Assembly: GCA_012842395.1 (NCBI GenBank)
Contig: DUSX01000001.1
Coordinates: 1 to 64,000, forward strand
Source: Bacillota bacterium
GTDB taxonomy: Bacteria; Bacillota; SHA-98; UBA4971
Direction: 5' to 3'
DNA length: 64,000 nucleotides
The translations under genes and the position numbers were made by a program. The notes beneath the pieces were generated by a model that searched no databases, had not been told where the DNA came from, and was given only the letters and a program-made list of their open reading frames with translations. This document shows positions 49,291 to 57,714 of the stretch, piece after piece. How positions within the stretch are numbered: position 1 is the stretch's first letter; the number at the start of each line of letters is the position of its first letter.

Positions 49291-50044
49291 AGTTGAAGCA
49301 CCTCCGCTCGCTGCGCCGAATGCCGCCGCCAGATGCATGACGCATGTCGCAGGCATCTGTTGGACCTACACCTGTAGAGCAGGTAGGGAACCTTCACGCT
49401 TTTGCCCGCCGCATGGAAGTTTTTCGACATGAAAGGGAGAATTCCTTCATACTTGAAGGGATGTACAAAGAGATTCTCTTCACATTGGTCGCGCGTTACC
49501 TGGCACCCATGGATATCCGTTCGAGCAGCCATGGGAGGATGCGATAATCCTTACCCCATTGGCAGCAATTGTCAGTCTACCCCTGTTGTAATTGACGACG
49601 ACCAAACGGGGCCCACTTCACCAGAACCCGGTCCGGCAATCCGCTCGCCGGATTTCCACACCTCTCTCGTGATCGCCGCCACCTACCAAGGGCCCGGAGC
49701 ATTTCTGCACGACACCCGCGACATTGCTGAGATTCAGGTAACCTTAGCGCCGTCAAACGACGAGACAAAACCTATGGTGCCACACCCAGACATGTCAAGA
49801 TCGGTAGCCGGTACCTGCCGCGCCACACCCGGTGAATTCCCCACAACCGAAGAAGGATTTCGGGTAAAGACGGAGAATATGTGTGTTGACACGTGAATGT
49901 GTGTACACGTACAGTGCCGTTTAGCAGGCACTACGCTGCGAGCGCCGAGGCGGACACCCTTTACAACAAGTCCTTAGTTGGACCAGGTCGACGAACGTTC
50001 GTGGTCACTCAGGAGCACGACTCAAAGGTATGCAGGAGGGCGCT
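49291..50044. promoter_or_regulatory. Divergent control region between RpiR and GntR genes
   Basis: This 754-bp region separates the amino-sugar operon from the phosphoglycerate-like operon. Near its left side an inverted repeat ATGAAAGG..CCTTCAT (49429-49450) is a plausible RpiR operator, since RpiR sites are often TGAAA-type palindromes. Near its right side lies the promoter described separately. Between them I see no gene; a 67-codon plus frame at 49344 has no recognised homology. Confidence 0.45.
49883..49915 (+). promoter_or_regulatory. Promoter with twin GTGT/ACAC palindromes upstream of the GntR gene
   Basis: TTGACA (49886-49891) and TACAGT (49910-49915) are separated by 18 bp. Two palindromes overlap the elements: GTGTTGACAC (49883-49892) covers the -35 hexamer and GTGTACAC (49901-49908) fills the spacer; their centres are 17 bp apart. 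The GntR/UTRA gene begins 130 bp downstream, so this is a likely autoregulated promoter for the whole operon to 57714. Confidence 0.7.
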
Positions 50045-50827
50045 ATGCTTCAAAAAGAGAGCTTTGTTCCACTTTACTACCAGCTCAAAGAGGCAATCAA
50101 AGAGAAGATAACTTCGGGCGAATGGAGGCCGCACACTTGCATCCCGTCAGTCCGCGAGCTGTGCGCCACGTATGGAATCAGCACAACCACCGCAAAGCAG
50201 GCGATATCCGAGCTTGTCCACGAAGGGTTGCTTTATTGCTTGCAGGGCAAGGGCACGTTCGTGGCATGCCCGCAGTTTCCCATGGAGTACAAGGAGACTA
50301 CCTACATTACGGACGAAATGAGACTTGCGTCCCGTATCCGGGCGCTTGGGCACCACTTCGCGGCAGAGGTGCTTTCAGTGGACCACGTTAAGGCATCGAA
50401 ACTCGTGGGGTCGTACCTTGCCGTCAAAGAGGGTGCCGACATCTTGCGTGTGCGCCGACTCAAACGAGTCGACCAACGCCCAATGCTCGTAGAAACCACG
50501 TTCATCTCGACAGACACGGCGCCTGAGCTCGAGAAGTCTGACCTCTCACAGTCGCTTTTCAGGATACTCGCTTCAACATACGGCATTGTTCTCAAGAGAA
50601 GCGATGAAACCTTCAGACCGGTTTTCCTGGATTCGCTCGAAGCAGAGCTTCTTGAACAACCCATGGGTGCACTTGCTCTCCTGAACGACCGAATATCGTA
50701 TGCTGACGGCCCACGGCCGGTGCTGTACGCCAAGTCTCTCATACGAGGTGATATGTGCAAGACCTACATTGATCTTACCAACATGCGGTCCGTGAAGGAA
50801 GCGGTGACGAACGCTTCATCCTTCTAG
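50045..50827 (+). CDS. GntR-family regulator with UTRA domain
   Basis: A 260-residue HutC-subfamily regulator. The winged helix runs from PLYYQLKEAIKEKITSGEW through SVRELCATYGISTTTAKQAI to the wing EGLLYCLQGKGTF, followed by a UTRA domain (LRVRRLKRVDQRPMLVETT, PVLYAKSLIRGD). ATG 50045 follows GCAGGAGGGC. It opens a colinear six-gene set (regulator, cyclic-DPG-synthetase-like, binding protein, permease, ATPase, mutase-like) with short gaps, so the effector is probably the phosphorylated compound handled by that set. Confidence 0.92.
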   Translation: MLQKESFVPLYYQLKEAIKEKITSGEWRPHTCIPSVRELCATYGISTTTAKQAISELVHEGLLYCLQGKGTFVACPQFPMEYKETTYITDEMRLASRIRALGHHFAAEVLSVDHVKASKLVGSYLAVKEGADILRVRRLKRVDQRPMLVETTFISTDTAPELEKSDLSQSLFRILASTYGIVLKRSDETFRPVFLDSLEAELLEQPMGALALLNDRISYADGPRPVLYAKSLIRGDMCKTYIDLTNMRSVKEAVTNASSF

Positions 50828-50862: not shown

Positions 50863-52206
50863 ATGACCAAGCCGAAAACCGTGGTCTTGACAGACGGGGA
50901 GCACTACCCAGCGGTCACTCACGATGCGCTCGCAGAGCTCGGGGTGGACCGCGACATCGTGGCAGCGGTATTCATCGGGGGGACCGAGAAGATCGGCTCA
51001 GATGCCGATCTGGCGAAGCTGGGAGTGCCAGTCATCAAGAAACCCGATTACCTTCAGGCAATATGCGAGGCCATAGACACGTACCGGCCCGATGAAATCG
51101 TGGACCTGAGCGACGAGCCTGTTGTAGGTTACCGGGAGCGTTTCGCCATAGCCAGCACTGTTCTTGCACGAGGGGTGGTGTACGAAGGCGCGGACTTCAG
51201 GTTTGCTCCGCCCAGGGAGGCGGCGCGCGTCTCCCGCCCGTCCATCTCTGTGGTGGGCACAGGCAAGCGGATAGGTAAGACAGCCGTTGGAGGATTCGTG
51301 GCACGAACTCTTTCAAGAGAATTCCGGCCTGTGATTGTCACTATGGGCCGGGGAGGGCCTGCAGAGCCCGAGCTCATCCGAGGTGCGGAGATCGAGATAA
51401 CCCCAGAGTACCTGCTTTCTGTAGCAAAGCAGGGCCGCCATGCCTCCTCGGACCATTTCGAAGATGCGCTGACCTCTCGAGTCACGACCATAGGCTGTCG
51501 AAGGTGCGGCGGAGGAATGTCAGGGCAGACATTCACCTCGAATGTGGAGAAGGGAGCAAGGCTCTCCGAGACAGTGGACGCCGACATAGTAGTCTTTGAG
51601 GGAAGCGGGTCCACCATCCCGTCAGTGCACACAGACGCTAGAATCCTCGTTGTCGGCGCGAATCAGCCTCGCGAATACCTGTCATCCTACCTGGGCCCGT
51701 ACAGGGTACTCACTTCAGACCTGATAATCCTCACGATGTGCGAAAGCCCCATAGCTGACCAGACCAAGGTGACGGAGATGGCGGACACAATCTCCAAGCT
51801 TAACCCAGAAGCTAGGGTAATCAGGACTGTCTTCCGGCCCCGTCCTCTGGGTGAGATCTCAGGCAAGAAGATTGTGCTTACTCTCACGACTCCGCCGTCC
51901 ATGGCCAGAACGGTGGCCGAACACCTTGAAGCGAATTACGGGTGCTACATAGCGGGAATTAGCTGTCATCTTTCGAACAGGCCTCTTCTTAGAGGAGATC
52001 TCGCCTCGTTTGAGAGGCTAGCACCGGAGGTGGTGGTCACAGAGCTCAAGGCAGCCGCGGTGGATGTTGTCACGGCCTGGGGAATCGAAAAGGGTTGCAG
52101 AGTCGTCTACATGGACAACGAGCCGGTACCGTTGGATCCCTCCGAGCGTTTGGACGAAGAGGTGCTCTCTCTGGCACGACGCGCGTCAAGCAATCGAAAG
52201 CGATAG
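50863..52206 (+). CDS. Cyclic 2,3-diphosphoglycerate synthetase-like ATPase
   Basis: A 447-residue homologue of the methanogen enzyme (about 460 residues) that uses ATP to close 2,3-diphosphoglycerate into its cyclic pyrophosphate. The N-terminus VVLTDGEHYPAVTHDAL is the family start. SVVGTGKRIGKTAVGG (residues 129-144) is the P-loop, VTMGRGGP follows, and GCRRCGGGMSGQTF is a cysteine-containing family block. DIVVFEGSGSTIP carries the Walker B region. ATG has AAGGAGGTAGC upstream. Cyclic DPG is established only in methanogens, so the bacterial product is unproven. No 2-phosphoglycerate kinase is beside it; the neighbours are an importer and a phosphoglycerate-mutase-like protein. Confidence 0.82.
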   Translation: MTKPKTVVLTDGEHYPAVTHDALAELGVDRDIVAAVFIGGTEKIGSDADLAKLGVPVIKKPDYLQAICEAIDTYRPDEIVDLSDEPVVGYRERFAIASTVLARGVVYEGADFRFAPPREAARVSRPSISVVGTGKRIGKTAVGGFVARTLSREFRPVIVTMGRGGPAEPELIRGAEIEITPEYLLSVAKQGRHASSDHFEDALTSRVTTIGCRRCGGGMSGQTFTSNVEKGARLSETVDADIVVFEGSGSTIPSVHTDARILVVGANQPREYLSSYLGPYRVLTSDLIILTMCESPIADQTKVTEMADTISKLNPEARVIRTVFRPRPLGEISGKKIVLTLTTPPSMARTVAEHLEANYGCYIAGISCHLSNRPLLRGDLASFERLAPEVVVTELKAAAVDVVTAWGIEKGCRVVYMDNEPVPLDPSERLDEEVLSLARRASSNRKR

Positions 52207-52252: not shown

Positions 52253-53233
52253 ATGCATAGGACTGTGACCTGTCTTCTGGCTCTGGTGGTTCTCCTCTCC
52301 ATTGCGACACAGGTATCAGCTCAGTCGAGACTCCTGCTCTACACCTCAGTTCCGCTTGAGCTCGCAACCAAGTTCGTAGACGAATTCACGCGCACGAACA
52401 AAGACATCAAGGTCGAAGTGTTTCGGGCAGGCAGTACGGATGTAGTGAACAAGATCTGGGCGGAGAACGAGGCAGGCGGCGTCAAGGCTGACGTGGTGTG
52501 GCTCGCTGACGCAGCCAGCTACCACTCCTTTAAGGCCAAGGGACTCTTATACCCATACAAGTCTCCCGAGGCGGCCAAGGTACCTGCCGAGCTCAGGGAT
52601 CCTGATGGCTATTTCACCGCCGCCCGGCTGATCAACATGGTGATCGGAATCAATACCTCTCTCGTCAAGCCGGACTCAGTTCCACGGACGTGGAACGACC
52701 TGCTTGCCATGGGCCCGAAGGCTGCTATGGCCAACCCGCTTTACTCCGGTTCGAACTTCATGGTGACCGCAGCTTTCGTGAACAAGTATGGGGGCTGGGG
52801 CTGGCTCGAGCAGGCGCGGAAGAACGGGGTGCAAGTGCTGCGGGGGAACTCAGACGTCTCGCGCGGGCTTGGAGCCGGTGAGTTCGCTGCGTGTATGGTC
52901 CTGGATTACATGGTCTACGAACTCAAGAAAGCGGGGGCGCCCGTTGACGTAGTATGGCCGGAAGACGGCACTGTCTCCATCCCAAGCCCGGTTGCCATAA
53001 TATCCGGCACTAAGAACCTCGCCGCCGCAAAAGCGTTCATCGACTTCGCACTGTCCAAAACGGGACAGGAGTTCATGGTACGCGACGGCGTCATGCCTGT
53101 GAGGCCCGACGTAGCGCCCCCGCCCGGCATGCCTACGCCCGACCGAATCAAGGTCATGCCGATCCCGTACGAGTGGGCAGCGGATCACACCTCGGAGATA
53201 AGGGAAACGTTTGAGAAACTGATGCTCAAGTAG
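52253..53233 (+). CDS. ABC transporter substrate-binding protein (AfuA/iron-phosphonate type)
   Basis: A 326-residue type II binding protein. Signal peptide to about residue 23 (ending TQVSAQ), then SRLLLYTSVPLELATKFVDEF, IKVEVFRAGSTDVVNKIWAE, ADVVWLADAASYHSFKAKGLL and MANPLYSGSNFMVTAAFVNKYG, the landmarks of the AfuA/FbpA/PhnS group (COG1840). Members bind ferric iron, 2-aminoethylphosphonate or sugar phosphates; AfuA takes hexose phosphates. The iron-binding paired tyrosines are not evident. Context favours a phosphorylated three-carbon acid or similar. Strong ribosome site AAGGAGGCG. Confidence 0.88.
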   Translation: MHRTVTCLLALVVLLSIATQVSAQSRLLLYTSVPLELATKFVDEFTRTNKDIKVEVFRAGSTDVVNKIWAENEAGGVKADVVWLADAASYHSFKAKGLLYPYKSPEAAKVPAELRDPDGYFTAARLINMVIGINTSLVKPDSVPRTWNDLLAMGPKAAMANPLYSGSNFMVTAAFVNKYGGWGWLEQARKNGVQVLRGNSDVSRGLGAGEFAACMVLDYMVYELKKAGAPVDVVWPEDGTVSIPSPVAIISGTKNLAAAKAFIDFALSKTGQEFMVRDGVMPVRPDVAPPPGMPTPDRIKVMPIPYEWAADHTSEIRETFEKLMLK

Positions 53234-53363
53234 CGAATGGCGCCCGCATGGGAGGCACGCACGGGGACATGTACAATCAAGTGCGCCCCCGTGTGTGCCC
53301 CTGTCAGAACGTTCGGCCGCGGACGCGCCATCATGCACACGGACAGGAGAGAGGAGGGTACGT

Positions 53364-55034
53364 TTGAACAGCGTAGTTCGACGCTCCTTTGACGCGAGGT
53401 ACGCGATCACAGCCGCGATCGGCCTCTTTTTCGCAGTTGTGATCATCTACCCATTGTCCCTTGTGATCGCGAAGAGCTTCAGCTCAGATTCGGGCCTGAG
53501 CTTGGCGCACTATGCTCGGGTATTCAGCGACGCCGCGAACCTGAAGGCGTTGTGGAATTCCGTGTGGGTGTCTGTGCTCAGCACGATCATGTGTGTCGCG
53601 GCGGGAGCCCTCCTGGCGATGCTGGTGGTCAGGACCGACATCCCGGCGAAGTCGTTCCTCCGTTTGCTGTTATTGCTGCCCTATGGAATACCGCCGTTCA
53701 TAGGTGCGATCGCCTGGGCTCAGCTGTTCGGGCCCGCGGGCTACGTGACGAAGCTTTACATGAGCGCCACGGGCGCCGGCTCGGCACCATGGAACGTGTA
53801 TAGCCCTTCAGGAGTTGTCCTCGTCCTTTCGATATACCAGCTTCCCGTGGTGTTCATTACGGTGAGTGGCGCTCTAGGTCGGATAGACACATCGCTTGAG
53901 GAAGCCGCACGAATGTCGGGAGCAAGCCCATTCAGGACCCTTCTCGACGTTACACTCCCCCTAGTCACTCCCGCCATCGCCGCGGGAGGGCTTCTCGCGT
54001 TCGTCGGCTCCATATGCAACTTCGGCATCCCAGCGCTTCTCGGGTTTCGGGCGAGATTCTTCGTTCTTACCACAAAGATATACTCAGCACTGTCCATACC
54101 GGACATGCCCGTGGCAGCTGCCATGTCTGTTATACTGGCCCTCGTTTCAGGTGTTGCACTTATACTCCAGCGAAGACTTGAGCGGAAGCAGCACAGGTAT
54201 GCCGTAATCTCAGGTAAGAGTGTGCGACCGCAGACAATGAGGTTGGGCCCTGCAAGGGTACCTCTATTCGTCGTGGTGATCGCTGCAGCTCTTTTCGCTG
54301 GCGTCGTACCGATAGCTTCGATGATCCTAACGTCGTTCATCAAATACTGGGGTGCTCCGCTGACTTTCAAGAGCATGACTCTAGACCATTACAAGTACGT
54401 TTTGCGCATTCCGATTGCAGCGCGCGCCTTCAGGAATAGCCTTTTCCTTGGTGTTTGCACCGCGACCATCACTATGACAGCAGGGGCCTTCGTCTCATAC
54501 ATGTGTATCAGAGCCAAGTTTGCTGCGGCTCGTGTGCTAGACTTTCTTGGGACCATCCCATATGCGGTCCCGCACACAATGATCGCCATAGCGATGATAT
54601 TGGCCTGGTCGCGTCCGCCTGTTGTCCTTTACGGCACAATCTGGGTGTTACTCGCTGCCTATCTGGTTACTTACATGCCCTTCTCCATCCGCACGACCAA
54701 CGCCACCCTCCAGCAGGTGCACATATCGCTGGAAGAGGCCGCAAGGATGTCGGGGGCGAGATGGAGCGACACGGTGCGCGATATAGTCCTACCACTGATT
54801 AAGCCCGGACTTGTATCCGGCTGGGTCCTGGTATTCATGCCTGCCTTTCGTGAACTTACCATGTCTGTGCTCCTTTGGTCGCAGGGAGCAGAGACGCTTG
54901 GTGTCGCGATCTACAATATGCAAGACGCCGGTTATAGCCAGATAGCGGCTGCGCTCTCAACAGTTGTCCTTTTGATCATTTTTGCTGGTAACGCCCTGGT
55001 CCGCAGACTGTCGCGGGGTGAAATCGGATTCTAA
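53364..55034 (+). CDS. Fused two-domain ABC transporter permease (AfuB/FbpB type)
   Basis: A 556-residue permease containing two homologous six-helix halves in one chain. Each half has its EAA coupling loop: EEAARMSGASPFRTLLDVTLP and EEAARMSGARWSDTVRDIVLP. This duplicated layout is typical of the iron/phosphonate/sugar-phosphate class, distinct from the separate MalF/MalG permeases elsewhere in the window. I place the start at TTG 53364 after GAGGAGGGTACG. It sits between the binding protein (130 bp) and the ATPase (17 bp) genes. Confidence 0.92.
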   Translation: MNSVVRRSFDARYAITAAIGLFFAVVIIYPLSLVIAKSFSSDSGLSLAHYARVFSDAANLKALWNSVWVSVLSTIMCVAAGALLAMLVVRTDIPAKSFLRLLLLLPYGIPPFIGAIAWAQLFGPAGYVTKLYMSATGAGSAPWNVYSPSGVVLVLSIYQLPVVFITVSGALGRIDTSLEEAARMSGASPFRTLLDVTLPLVTPAIAAGGLLAFVGSICNFGIPALLGFRARFFVLTTKIYSALSIPDMPVAAAMSVILALVSGVALILQRRLERKQHRYAVISGKSVRPQTMRLGPARVPLFVVVIAAALFAGVVPIASMILTSFIKYWGAPLTFKSMTLDHYKYVLRIPIAARAFRNSLFLGVCTATITMTAGAFVSYMCIRAKFAAARVLDFLGTIPYAVPHTMIAIAMILAWSRPPVVLYGTIWVLLAAYLVTYMPFSIRTTNATLQQVHISLEEAARMSGARWSDTVRDIVLPLIKPGLVSGWVLVFMPAFRELTMSVLLWSQGAETLGVAIYNMQDAGYSQIAAALSTVVLLIIFAGNALVRRLSRGEIGF

Positions 55035-55051: not shown

Positions 55052-56113
55052 TTGGCAGATCGGCTCGAAGGAATACGAGTGCTGAAGCTTACGAAGAGAT
55101 TCGGCTCTTATGCCGCTGTGGACGGCGTGACCTTCACGGTACGCAAGAACGAGTTCTTTTCCCTCCTCGGCCCGTCGGGCTGCGGGAAGACTACGACGCT
55201 TCGGTGTATCGCCGGGCTTGAGCAACCGACGTTCGGTGAGGTCTATGTGGGTGGACGCCTTGTCTCGTCGGTTGAAAAGGGTGTCATGGTGCCCCCTGAA
55301 CGCCGTGGTATAGGGATGGTCTTCCAAAACTATGCGGTATGGCCGCACATGACAGTGGAGCAGAACATAGTCTATCCCCTCAAAATAGCGCGGGCTTCAA
55401 AGGCGAGAATCCGGTCAACGTTGTCGAACATCGTAGACCTCCTGAAGCTCTCTGGCCTTGAGAAGAGATACCCCGCGGAACTGTCCGGTGGCCAACAGCA
55501 AAGGGTGGCACTCGGGCGGGCGCTTGCCATGGACCCTGAGGTCATGCTGCTGGACGAGCCGCTTTCAAACCTTGATGCCAAGTTGCGTGAACAGATGAGG
55601 TTCGAGCTGAAAGATCTTCAACGGAAGACGGGAATAGCCATCCTATACGTGACGCACGACCAAGTAGAAGCCATGGCTATGTCCGACAGGGTAGCAGTAA
55701 TGAATTCCGGCATGATTGTCCAGGAGGGAACGCCCTATGAGATCTACAAATCTCCTGCCGACAAGTTCGTCGCGGACTTCATAGGCACAATGAATTTCCT
55801 GCCATGCGAGGTCCTAGAGTGGCGAGACGGCCTCGCCACCCTGCGCCTTCGCAACGGCTCGGTGGTGAGGATCAACAGCCCCGAGGTGGGTCGCGGTACT
55901 TACAGCTTTGCCGTGAGACCGGAGGACTTGCTCTTGAACCGAGAGGAAGGTGTCGAGTGTCAGGTTGACGTAGCCGTCTTCCTTGGAAATGTTGTCGACT
56001 ACAGGGTCAGACTTGGCGACGACGTCCTGCGTGTTCAGACCAGCGCTGACAACAGATTCGAGCCGGGCGAGGGCGCAAGACTCGCAGTGCAAAGAGGTGT
56101 TCTTTTCCCATGA
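55052..56113 (+). CDS. ABC transporter ATPase (AfuC/PotA type)
   Basis: A 353-residue ATPase: GPSGCGKTTTLRCIAGLE (Walker A), QNYAVWPHMTVEQN (Q-loop), LSGGQQQRVALGRAL (signature), VMLLDEPLSNLDAKLR (Walker B) and VTHDQVEAMAM (H-loop), followed by a TOBE-like C-terminal domain. TTG start behind GCGGAGGTGGCG. Its stop overlaps an upstream ATG of the next frame, keeping the mutase-like gene in the same transcript. It energises the import by the two preceding gene products. Confidence 0.94.
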   Translation: MADRLEGIRVLKLTKRFGSYAAVDGVTFTVRKNEFFSLLGPSGCGKTTTLRCIAGLEQPTFGEVYVGGRLVSSVEKGVMVPPERRGIGMVFQNYAVWPHMTVEQNIVYPLKIARASKARIRSTLSNIVDLLKLSGLEKRYPAELSGGQQQRVALGRALAMDPEVMLLDEPLSNLDAKLREQMRFELKDLQRKTGIAILYVTHDQVEAMAMSDRVAVMNSGMIVQEGTPYEIYKSPADKFVADFIGTMNFLPCEVLEWRDGLATLRLRNGSVVRINSPEVGRGTYSFAVRPEDLLLNREEGVECQVDVAVFLGNVVDYRVRLGDDVLRVQTSADNRFEPGEGARLAVQRGVLFP

Positions 56114-56139: not shown

Positions 56140-57714
56140 ATGAAGACCACGGAGCTGTTGGCCAAAGCTCTTAGGAGACGCTACGAAGCAGGTGCTGTAG
56201 ACTATTGGATGAACCCGCTGGTGCGGGGGCAGGGCGGCGTCCCCGTCGGACGAATACGCGATGGAGACTGCGTAGTGTTCTGCTGTAGGCGGGGAGACCG
56301 AGAGGCCCAGCTTACTGACGCTTTCACCGACCCTTCTTTCGACAAGTTTGCGGTGGAGCGTATGCCAAATCTCGCTTTCATACCATTCGTTCAGTATCAT
56401 GAGCGCTTCTCGCACCTTCCCACTGTCTTCCCCCTTTTGCGCCCCGAAATGACTCTAGGGGAGGTCATAAGCCGGGCTGGCCTCTCACAGCTCCGGGTGG
56501 CAGAGTCCGAGAAGTCCGCTCATGTAGGCTTCTTCTTCAACGGGCGAAGGGCCGAGCCGTTCCCTGGTGAGGAGCGAATGGTGGTACCGAGCCCCCCTTC
56601 TTCTCAGCTCACCAACACTCCGGAAACAAGCACCTGGGAAGTCTCGCAAGCAGTGGCCGATGCGATGCGGGATGGCAGGTTTAGCTTCATTCTCGCGAAC
56701 CTTGCAGCAGGGGATATGATCGGGCACCTAGATGACTGGAATGCGAACGTCAAATGCGCGGAAGCGGTTGACAGAGCACTCGGTGCCATATGCAGCGCTG
56801 CAGCAGAAACGGGGTACACGGTGGTTGTAACTGCAGACCACGGCCTTCTGGAGCAATTCCGAAATGAAGATGGCAGCCCCAGCCTGGGACACACCACTGC
56901 CCGGGTGCCGTTCGCCATTGTGCCACCTCGTGAGGGGCAGTTTCGGGCGAGCACGGTCGCATGTGACGCGTCTCTCGCCGACGTCGCTCCAACAGTCCTC
57001 GAGTTGCTCGGGCTGAGAGTGCCAGGCGAGATGACGGGAAGGCCGCTTTTCGTGAGCGGTGGAAGTAACGCCCCACGCAAGTGCGCGCTGGTGGTGCTTG
57101 ACGGATGGGGTGTGGGAAAAGCAGACCCATCCGCGAATCCTATCGCCGCCGCAAGAACGCCCACCATGGACAGGATAAGGAAAGGATGTCCCTATACCAC
57201 ACTCTTGGCTGCCGGGCTGGCCGTCGGGCTCCCGGAGGGACGTCCGGGAAACTCTGAGACGGGGCATCTCACCATCGGCGCCGGCAGAACGATCCCCCAG
57301 GATGAACTGAGGATAGCCAAAGCAGTCGAGTCTGGCAACTTCTTGGACAACCCTGCGCTCATATGCGGGTTCAAGAGAGCGTCGGCCTTTGGAGGTAGAG
57401 TCCATATCATCATGATGTTGTCGGAAAAGAGCTCCCACGGGAACATCAATGAAGGAGTTGCCGTGCTGGAGGCCGCGCGCGCCCACGGGGTTACGCCGGT
57501 CGAGCTTCACCTAGTCCTGGACGGCAGGAGCAGCCCGCCTCAGGGAGCGGCGGACTTGCTGCAGGTGCTCGAGAGGCAAGCCTCTGACAGAGCGGACTGG
57601 GATGTGGCGACCGCCATTGGCAGGGGGCTGGTCCTTGATAGGAGCGGGAGCTACGTGGAGAAGACCCGCGTGGCCTACATGGCTCTCACGCGCGGGCAGG
57701 GCGAGATCTTCTGA
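56140..57714 (+). CDS. Circularly permuted phosphoglycerate-mutase (iPGM)-like enzyme
   Basis: A 524-residue homologue of cofactor-independent phosphoglycerate mutase with the two halves swapped. Residues 1-305 match the GpmI C-terminal part: DGDCVVFCCRRGDREAQLT (Arg51, Arg54), AESEKSAHVGFFFNG (Lys125), LAAGDMIGH (Asp192, His196), VTADHG (Asp233, His234), GHTTARVP (His251) and EMTGRPLF, the normal C-terminus. A short linker then leads to residues 312-524, which match the GpmI N-terminal part: VVLDGWG (Asp321), GNSETGHLTIGAGR (nucleophile Ser372), SSH (His433), LDGRSSPP and IGRGLVLDR. All seven metal and nucleophile residues are kept. In the transferase pocket the aspartate of the DGRD motif is Ser464. 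ATG follows AAGGAGGAACG; last gene of the operon. Confidence 0.92.
   Translation: MKTTELLAKALRRRYEAGAVDYWMNPLVRGQGGVPVGRIRDGDCVVFCCRRGDREAQLTDAFTDPSFDKFAVERMPNLAFIPFVQYHERFSHLPTVFPLLRPEMTLGEVISRAGLSQLRVAESEKSAHVGFFFNGRRAEPFPGEERMVVPSPPSSQLTNTPETSTWEVSQAVADAMRDGRFSFILANLAAGDMIGHLDDWNANVKCAEAVDRALGAICSAAAETGYTVVVTADHGLLEQFRNEDGSPSLGHTTARVPFAIVPPREGQFRASTVACDASLADVAPTVLELLGLRVPGEMTGRPLFVSGGSNAPRKCALVVLDGWGVGKADPSANPIAAARTPTMDRIRKGCPYTTLLAAGLAVGLPEGRPGNSETGHLTIGAGRTIPQDELRIAKAVESGNFLDNPALICGFKRASAFGGRVHIIMMLSEKSSHGNINEGVAVLEAARAHGVTPVELHLVLDGRSSPPQGAADLLQVLERQASDRADWDVATAIGRGLVLDRSGSYVEKTRVAYMALTRGQGEIF

Follow-up and report, generated by a model that had tools for sequence, protein, structure and literature searches.

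A circularly permuted iPGM with an altered substrate pocket

We asked what reaction is catalysed by the iPGM paralogue encoded at positions 56140-57714 of the window (the whole 64,000-nucleotide stretch of DNA analysed here), whose substrate pocket is altered; this gene and all features of the window described below lie on the forward strand. The 524-residue product matched TIGR01307 at 414.7 bits in two swapped stretches, with residues 8-304 falling on model positions 214-504, and iPGM_N was likewise split into two swapped stretches. Rather than the phosphatase N - transferase - phosphatase C order of iPGMs, the protein runs from transferase C-half through phosphatase C-part and phosphatase N-part to transferase N-half, and is circularly permuted. 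Its relatives aligned with it as a single segment (residues 10-523). An AlphaFold prediction from the single sequence, with no alignment, gave a pLDDT of 35. A literature search for a published permuted PGM returned nothing on topic, and plasmid records held only weaker matches (<60% identity), the annotated ones being named as ordinary gpmI.

Residue equivalences to the G. stearothermophilus iPGM were assigned by motif and spacing. The original prediction that the DGRD motif reads DGRS proved correct to the residue on translation from position 56140: D461-G-R-S464 (57520-57531; codons GAC GGC AGG AGC) places Ser464, encoded by AGC at 57529-57531, at the position of Asp154. We take Asp154 to be the general base for re-phosphorylation in iPGM, where it activates the acceptor hydroxyl. 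Replacement of the GGVHSH loop by KSSHGN with one histidine kept, also predicted, was seen at residues 430-435 (K430-S-S-H433-G-N435, 57427-57444), in which H433 is the retained equivalent of H123 and Asn stands at the H125 position. Where canonical enzymes have NFRADR, residues 49-54 read CRRGDR (56284-56301), with an extra Arg50 and both RxxR arginines kept (R51/R54, equivalent to R261/R264). The phosphatase-side residues and these two arginines had been described as intact, and all were present in the translation. The catalytic Ser372 (57253-57255; S62) lies in the motif [NGD]SExGH common to the permuted and canonical groups, and this serine and the metal ligands D321 (D12), D192/H196 (D403/H407), D233/H234 (D444/H445) and H251 (H462) were invariant in both. 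Nine residues of the G. stearothermophilus enzyme have been reported to contact 2PG or 3PG (S62, H123, R153, D154, R185, R191, R261, R264 and K336; PMC3886921). Eight of them are kept in the permuted protein, as S372, H433, R463, R495, R501, R51, R54 and K125, and D154 is the only one changed.

Of 399 genomes of the phylum, 12 yielded a permuted relative, the window's genome counted among them, and more turned up in the class of G076. The comparison set comprised 21 ordinary iPGMs, of which nine come from genomes with a permuted copy. Position 464 was Ser in 11/11 permuted sequences and Asp in 21/21 canonical ones, including those from the same genomes as permuted copies. Five permuted copies added later carried four Ser and one Asn, for a total of 15 Ser and one Asn among 16 copies from four or more families; the comparison across homologues proposed in the original prediction thus gave no case of Asp being restored. 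The loop read SSHG in 12/12 permuted and GVH[ST] in 21/21 canonical sequences, and position 50 was Arg in 12/12 and Phe in 21/21, respectively. At 17 positions the permuted and canonical sets were each fixed for a different residue (for instance Phe to Arg50 and Gly to Arg136), and the permuted sequences formed one clade (support 100/100), which is most simply explained by one permutation event. The signature pocket is common to this whole clade. One member, in G092 (L052:9083-10828), has additional sequence inserted in its phosphatase part, following the VPF-type strand.

The dN/dS between the window's permuted gene and two same-genus copies was ~0.12, indicating that the protein is under purifying selection. 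Since the change from Asp to AGC takes two base changes, a single sequencing error cannot explain Ser464; this codon change, the dN/dS of 0.12 and a comparable substitution in each of 16 copies rule out a sequencing error or pseudogene. Relative to iPGM/GpmI (TIGR01307; PDB 1ejj, 5vpu and 5kgl), the permuted enzyme shares both domains, the catalytic serine, all metal ligands and eight of the nine substrate residues, but differs in its circular permutation, in Asp154 to Ser, in GGVHSH to xSSHG, at the 17 fixed positions and in forming its own clade.

The permuted enzyme is accompanied by other PGMs

Outside the window's genus, nine genomes with the permuted gene were tested, and every one encodes a full canonical iPGM as well; in G249 this iPGM is located with triosephosphate isomerase (TPI) and enolase. 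The window's genome has no second iPGM_N match and encodes an aPGM (612.8 bits to PRK04135, whose cut-off is 468) as well as DeoB. The permuted gene is absent from two same-genus genomes, and a third, G002, holds a truncated, frame-broken piece of it that still reads DGRS (L068:2352-3086), which may reflect operon decay or an assembly fault. The permuted iPGM is an accessory gene and, because other PGMs are present in these nine genomes and in the window's genome, gene content indicates that it is not the glycolytic PGM of its genome. Taken together, genome content and selection define a functional, single-origin paralogue distinct from the glycolytic mutase. The proposal that the changed pocket signals a new function consequently stands in part: the change is real, fixed and never back to Asp, and the role is other than that of glycolytic mutase; which new function it serves is graded among the readings below.

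A conserved six-gene operon with a cPGS homologue

The permuted iPGM gene is the last of a six-gene operon in which a GntR/UTRA regulator is followed by a homologue of archaeal cyclic 2,3-diphosphoglycerate synthetase (cPGS/cDPGS), a solute-binding protein, a fused permease and an ATPase, with intergenic gaps of 17-61 bases. The identical order occurs in families f1, f38 and f63, and wherever a gene is missing the contig ends. cPGS was found in eight of the 399 phylum genomes and the permuted gene in seven of these eight; the one exception is G325, a 72%-complete genome in which the contig stops inside the ATPase gene. The regulator (50030-50827) matched Pfam GntR at 65 bits and UTRA at 107 bits, and a homologue lies immediately upstream of the cPGS gene in L011, L034, L045, L052, L066 and L067. 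No description of this gene set was found in a literature search.

The product of 50863-52206 matched no Pfam or NCBIfam family, though it is a close homologue of archaeal cPGS in a Bacillota genome (449 bits to PDB 8ork/8oru over residues 5-441). Cyclic 2,3-diphosphoglycerate is an archaeal heat-protectant solute. To our knowledge, it has been described as a solute only from hyperthermophilic methanogens, and we know of cyclic or linear 2,3-diphosphoglycerate metabolism of this kind only from methanogenic archaea. The M. fervidus cPGS residues reported to hold 2,3-diphosphoglycerate (2,3-DPG) and Mg-ATP (PMC10690619) were compared with the window homologue, in which E45, K46, K145, R146, K149, T150 and D208 are conserved; Walker A and the 2,3-DPG contacts E45, K145, R146 and D208 are all present. 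The motifs GGTEK, GTGKRIGKT and SDH occur in all eight operon copies, and a TELKAA motif was unmatched in three of them. The homologue thus shares with the methanogen enzyme (M. fervidus, PDB 8ork/8oru) a full-length match and the 2,3-DPG and Mg-ATP residues, but differs in belonging to Bacillota and being encoded alongside an importer in one operon, and in that the partner 2-phosphoglycerate kinase was not found: across nine genomes, nothing exceeded the NF003259 cut-off of 343 bits, the best match scoring 19.6 bits. The cPGS reaction favours synthesis by about 10 kJ/mol (PMC12136491).

The solute-binding protein (52253-53233) is nearest to the organophosphate binders AfuA and P5PA (72.6 bits to PDB 4r72-4r75 and 70.1 bits to 6wce), which bind phosphate esters (PMC4546632 and PMC8427247, respectively). 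In an alignment of the eight operon copies, Ser stood at the AfuA phosphate residue Ser37 and SGS at the SGT loop, and of the AfuA hexose determinants H205 was replaced by Leu, D206 was matched by Asp and E229 was replaced by Asp. The fused two-domain permease (53295-55034) matched BPD_transp_1 and, under the cut-off, PhnU2 (209 bits), and the ATPase (55052-56113), which carries a TOBE domain, matched ABC_tran and TOBE_2. Compared with AfuABC/P5PAB, the operon system shares the binding-protein fold and the phosphate-loop residues (Ser37, SGT/SGS), but has Leu for His205, Asp at Glu229 and a fused permease, and the match is at about 70 bits. The operon, which had not entered the original prediction, suggests an importer for organophosphates and chemistry involving 2,3-diphosphoglycerate, and its conservation gives the changed pocket a concrete, testable candidate substrate.

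Permuted copies outside the operon

A sister lineage has the same pocket without the six-gene operon; this pocket was seen in the f56 lineage and in G444, G416, G445 and G433. Since cPGS was seen neither in the f56 genomes nor in the fetched flanks of these four, the pocket does not by itself imply a cDPG-linked substrate. By reading, the neighbours of the f56 copies are RapZ, PgcA and chromate-transporter-like genes, which gave no substrate; permuted PGM without cPGS lies near RapZ and a PgcA-type phosphohexomutase in L048-L050 and L085. GDPD and phosphodiesterase genes surround the G444 copy. In G416, the permuted PGM, a fructosamine-kinase-like gene and a gene for a divergent enolase, in which the customary SHRS and GDEGG loops are absent, stand side by side.

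Divergent enolase paralogues without parts of the usual active-site loops were observed at L083:3560-4840, L094:7617-8918 and L095:4157-5443, two adjoining glycerate-kinase-like genes and one adjoining permuted PGM. A second P-loop protein (L094:1914-3251), which looks like a distant cPGS relative and which we take to be COG2403-like, was seen beside an agmatine/arginine-deiminase-like gene.

A candidate role in diphosphoglycerate metabolism

The reading we favour, tentatively and at somewhat less than an even chance, is that the permuted enzyme works on 2,3-diphosphoglycerate, or something closely analogous, as a Mn-dependent phosphatase or phosphotransferase in a pathway for uptake of cyclic or linear diphosphoglycerate. 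In more general terms, its substrate is probably not the normal phosphoglycerate but one that carries two phosphates or some other modification. Since the two-metal site and phosphoserine nucleophile are kept, the enzyme should still take phosphate from a phosphoglycerate-like substrate, and it would still form phosphoserine. At the site of the second half-reaction, loss of Asp154 and gain of R50 and R136 would fit a more acidic substrate, e.g. 2,3-diphosphoglycerate. Uptake would be by an AfuA-type importer, whose cargo would be a glycerate organophosphate and most likely 2,3-diphosphoglycerate in cyclic or linear form, a specificity that we infer from 70-bit homology. The cPGS homologue would then interconvert the cyclic and linear forms, and 2PG or 3PG for central metabolism would arise once the permuted enzyme had taken off or passed on one of the phosphates. 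Such a pathway could run in either direction, degrading cDPG or 2,3-DPG that the cell has taken up or making cDPG. Because cPGS favours synthesis, running it in reverse needs strong product removal, so the permuted enzyme would have to pull the reaction. A more specific proposal, which we consider somewhat unlikely, is that the bacteria use this operon to salvage cyclic 2,3-diphosphoglycerate, coupling import to ring opening by the cPGS homologue, possibly recovering ATP, and to phosphate stripping by a re-purposed permuted iPGM.

The retention of eight of nine substrate residues would also suit a phosphoglycerate mutase of the ordinary kind in which Ser is accepted in place of Asp, with permutation and pocket change as neutral drift. 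However, Asp is never restored across the families sampled, canonical iPGM is kept in all nine genomes tested outside the genus (with TPI and enolase in G249), and the window's genome has a high-scoring aPGM, with the permuted gene absent from two of its same-genus genomes, making this explanation quite unlikely. It is possible, if doubtful, that the enzyme is instead a mutase, or part of a mutase and enolase branch, for a modified phosphoglycerate other than 2,3-DPG, such as a glycerate phosphate substituted at position 2 or 3 and derived from a solute that the cell takes up, with the substrate supplying the part of Asp154; a mutase for a modified phosphoglycerate was the second of the two options in the original prediction. 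Occurrence of the same pocket in lineages without cPGS and the G416 gene neighbourhood keep such a mutase among the candidates, as does the G444 copy; the G416 enolase neighbour would suit it better than the 2,3-diphosphoglycerate reading. In contrast, the most conserved context is the operon with cPGS, the divergent enolase adjoins one copy only, and no gene names a specific substrate.

Alternatively, the enzyme could pass the phosphate of its phosphoserine to a second phosphoglycerate and so take over from the missing 2-phosphoglycerate kinase in supplying 2,3-DPG for cDPG synthesis, with cPGS closing the ring and the importer bringing in phosphoglycerates. This would agree with the favoured synthetic direction of cPGS (PMC12136491) and with the failure to find the kinase in nine genomes, and the extra arginines could hold a phosphorylated acceptor. 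The importer and UTRA regulator, however, look catabolic. If Asp154 activates the acceptor hydroxyl, as we presume, its loss also disfavours phosphorylation of a hydroxyl, and we regard the scheme as unlikely. Members of the PGM superfamily act on phosphonates, and annotation of the transporter as PhnS2/T2/U2-like (128 bits for PhnS2, 209 for PhnU2 and 352 for PhnT2) raises the question of a phosphonate-metabolism enzyme. All three scores nevertheless fall under the curated cut-offs of the PhnSTUV NCBIfam equivalogs (393, 593 and 458, respectively), the conserved cPGS partner retains its 2,3-DPG residues and the operon contains no phosphonate enzyme, so a phosphonate role is very unlikely.

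If the 2,3-diphosphoglycerate reading is true, a glycolytic enzyme was circularly permuted once and then re-purposed, and cyclic or linear 2,3-diphosphoglycerate metabolism would be placed in bacteria, with its own importer and regulator. The six genes would then constitute a directly testable pathway, and the permuted clade a natural experiment on the role of Asp154 in iPGM.
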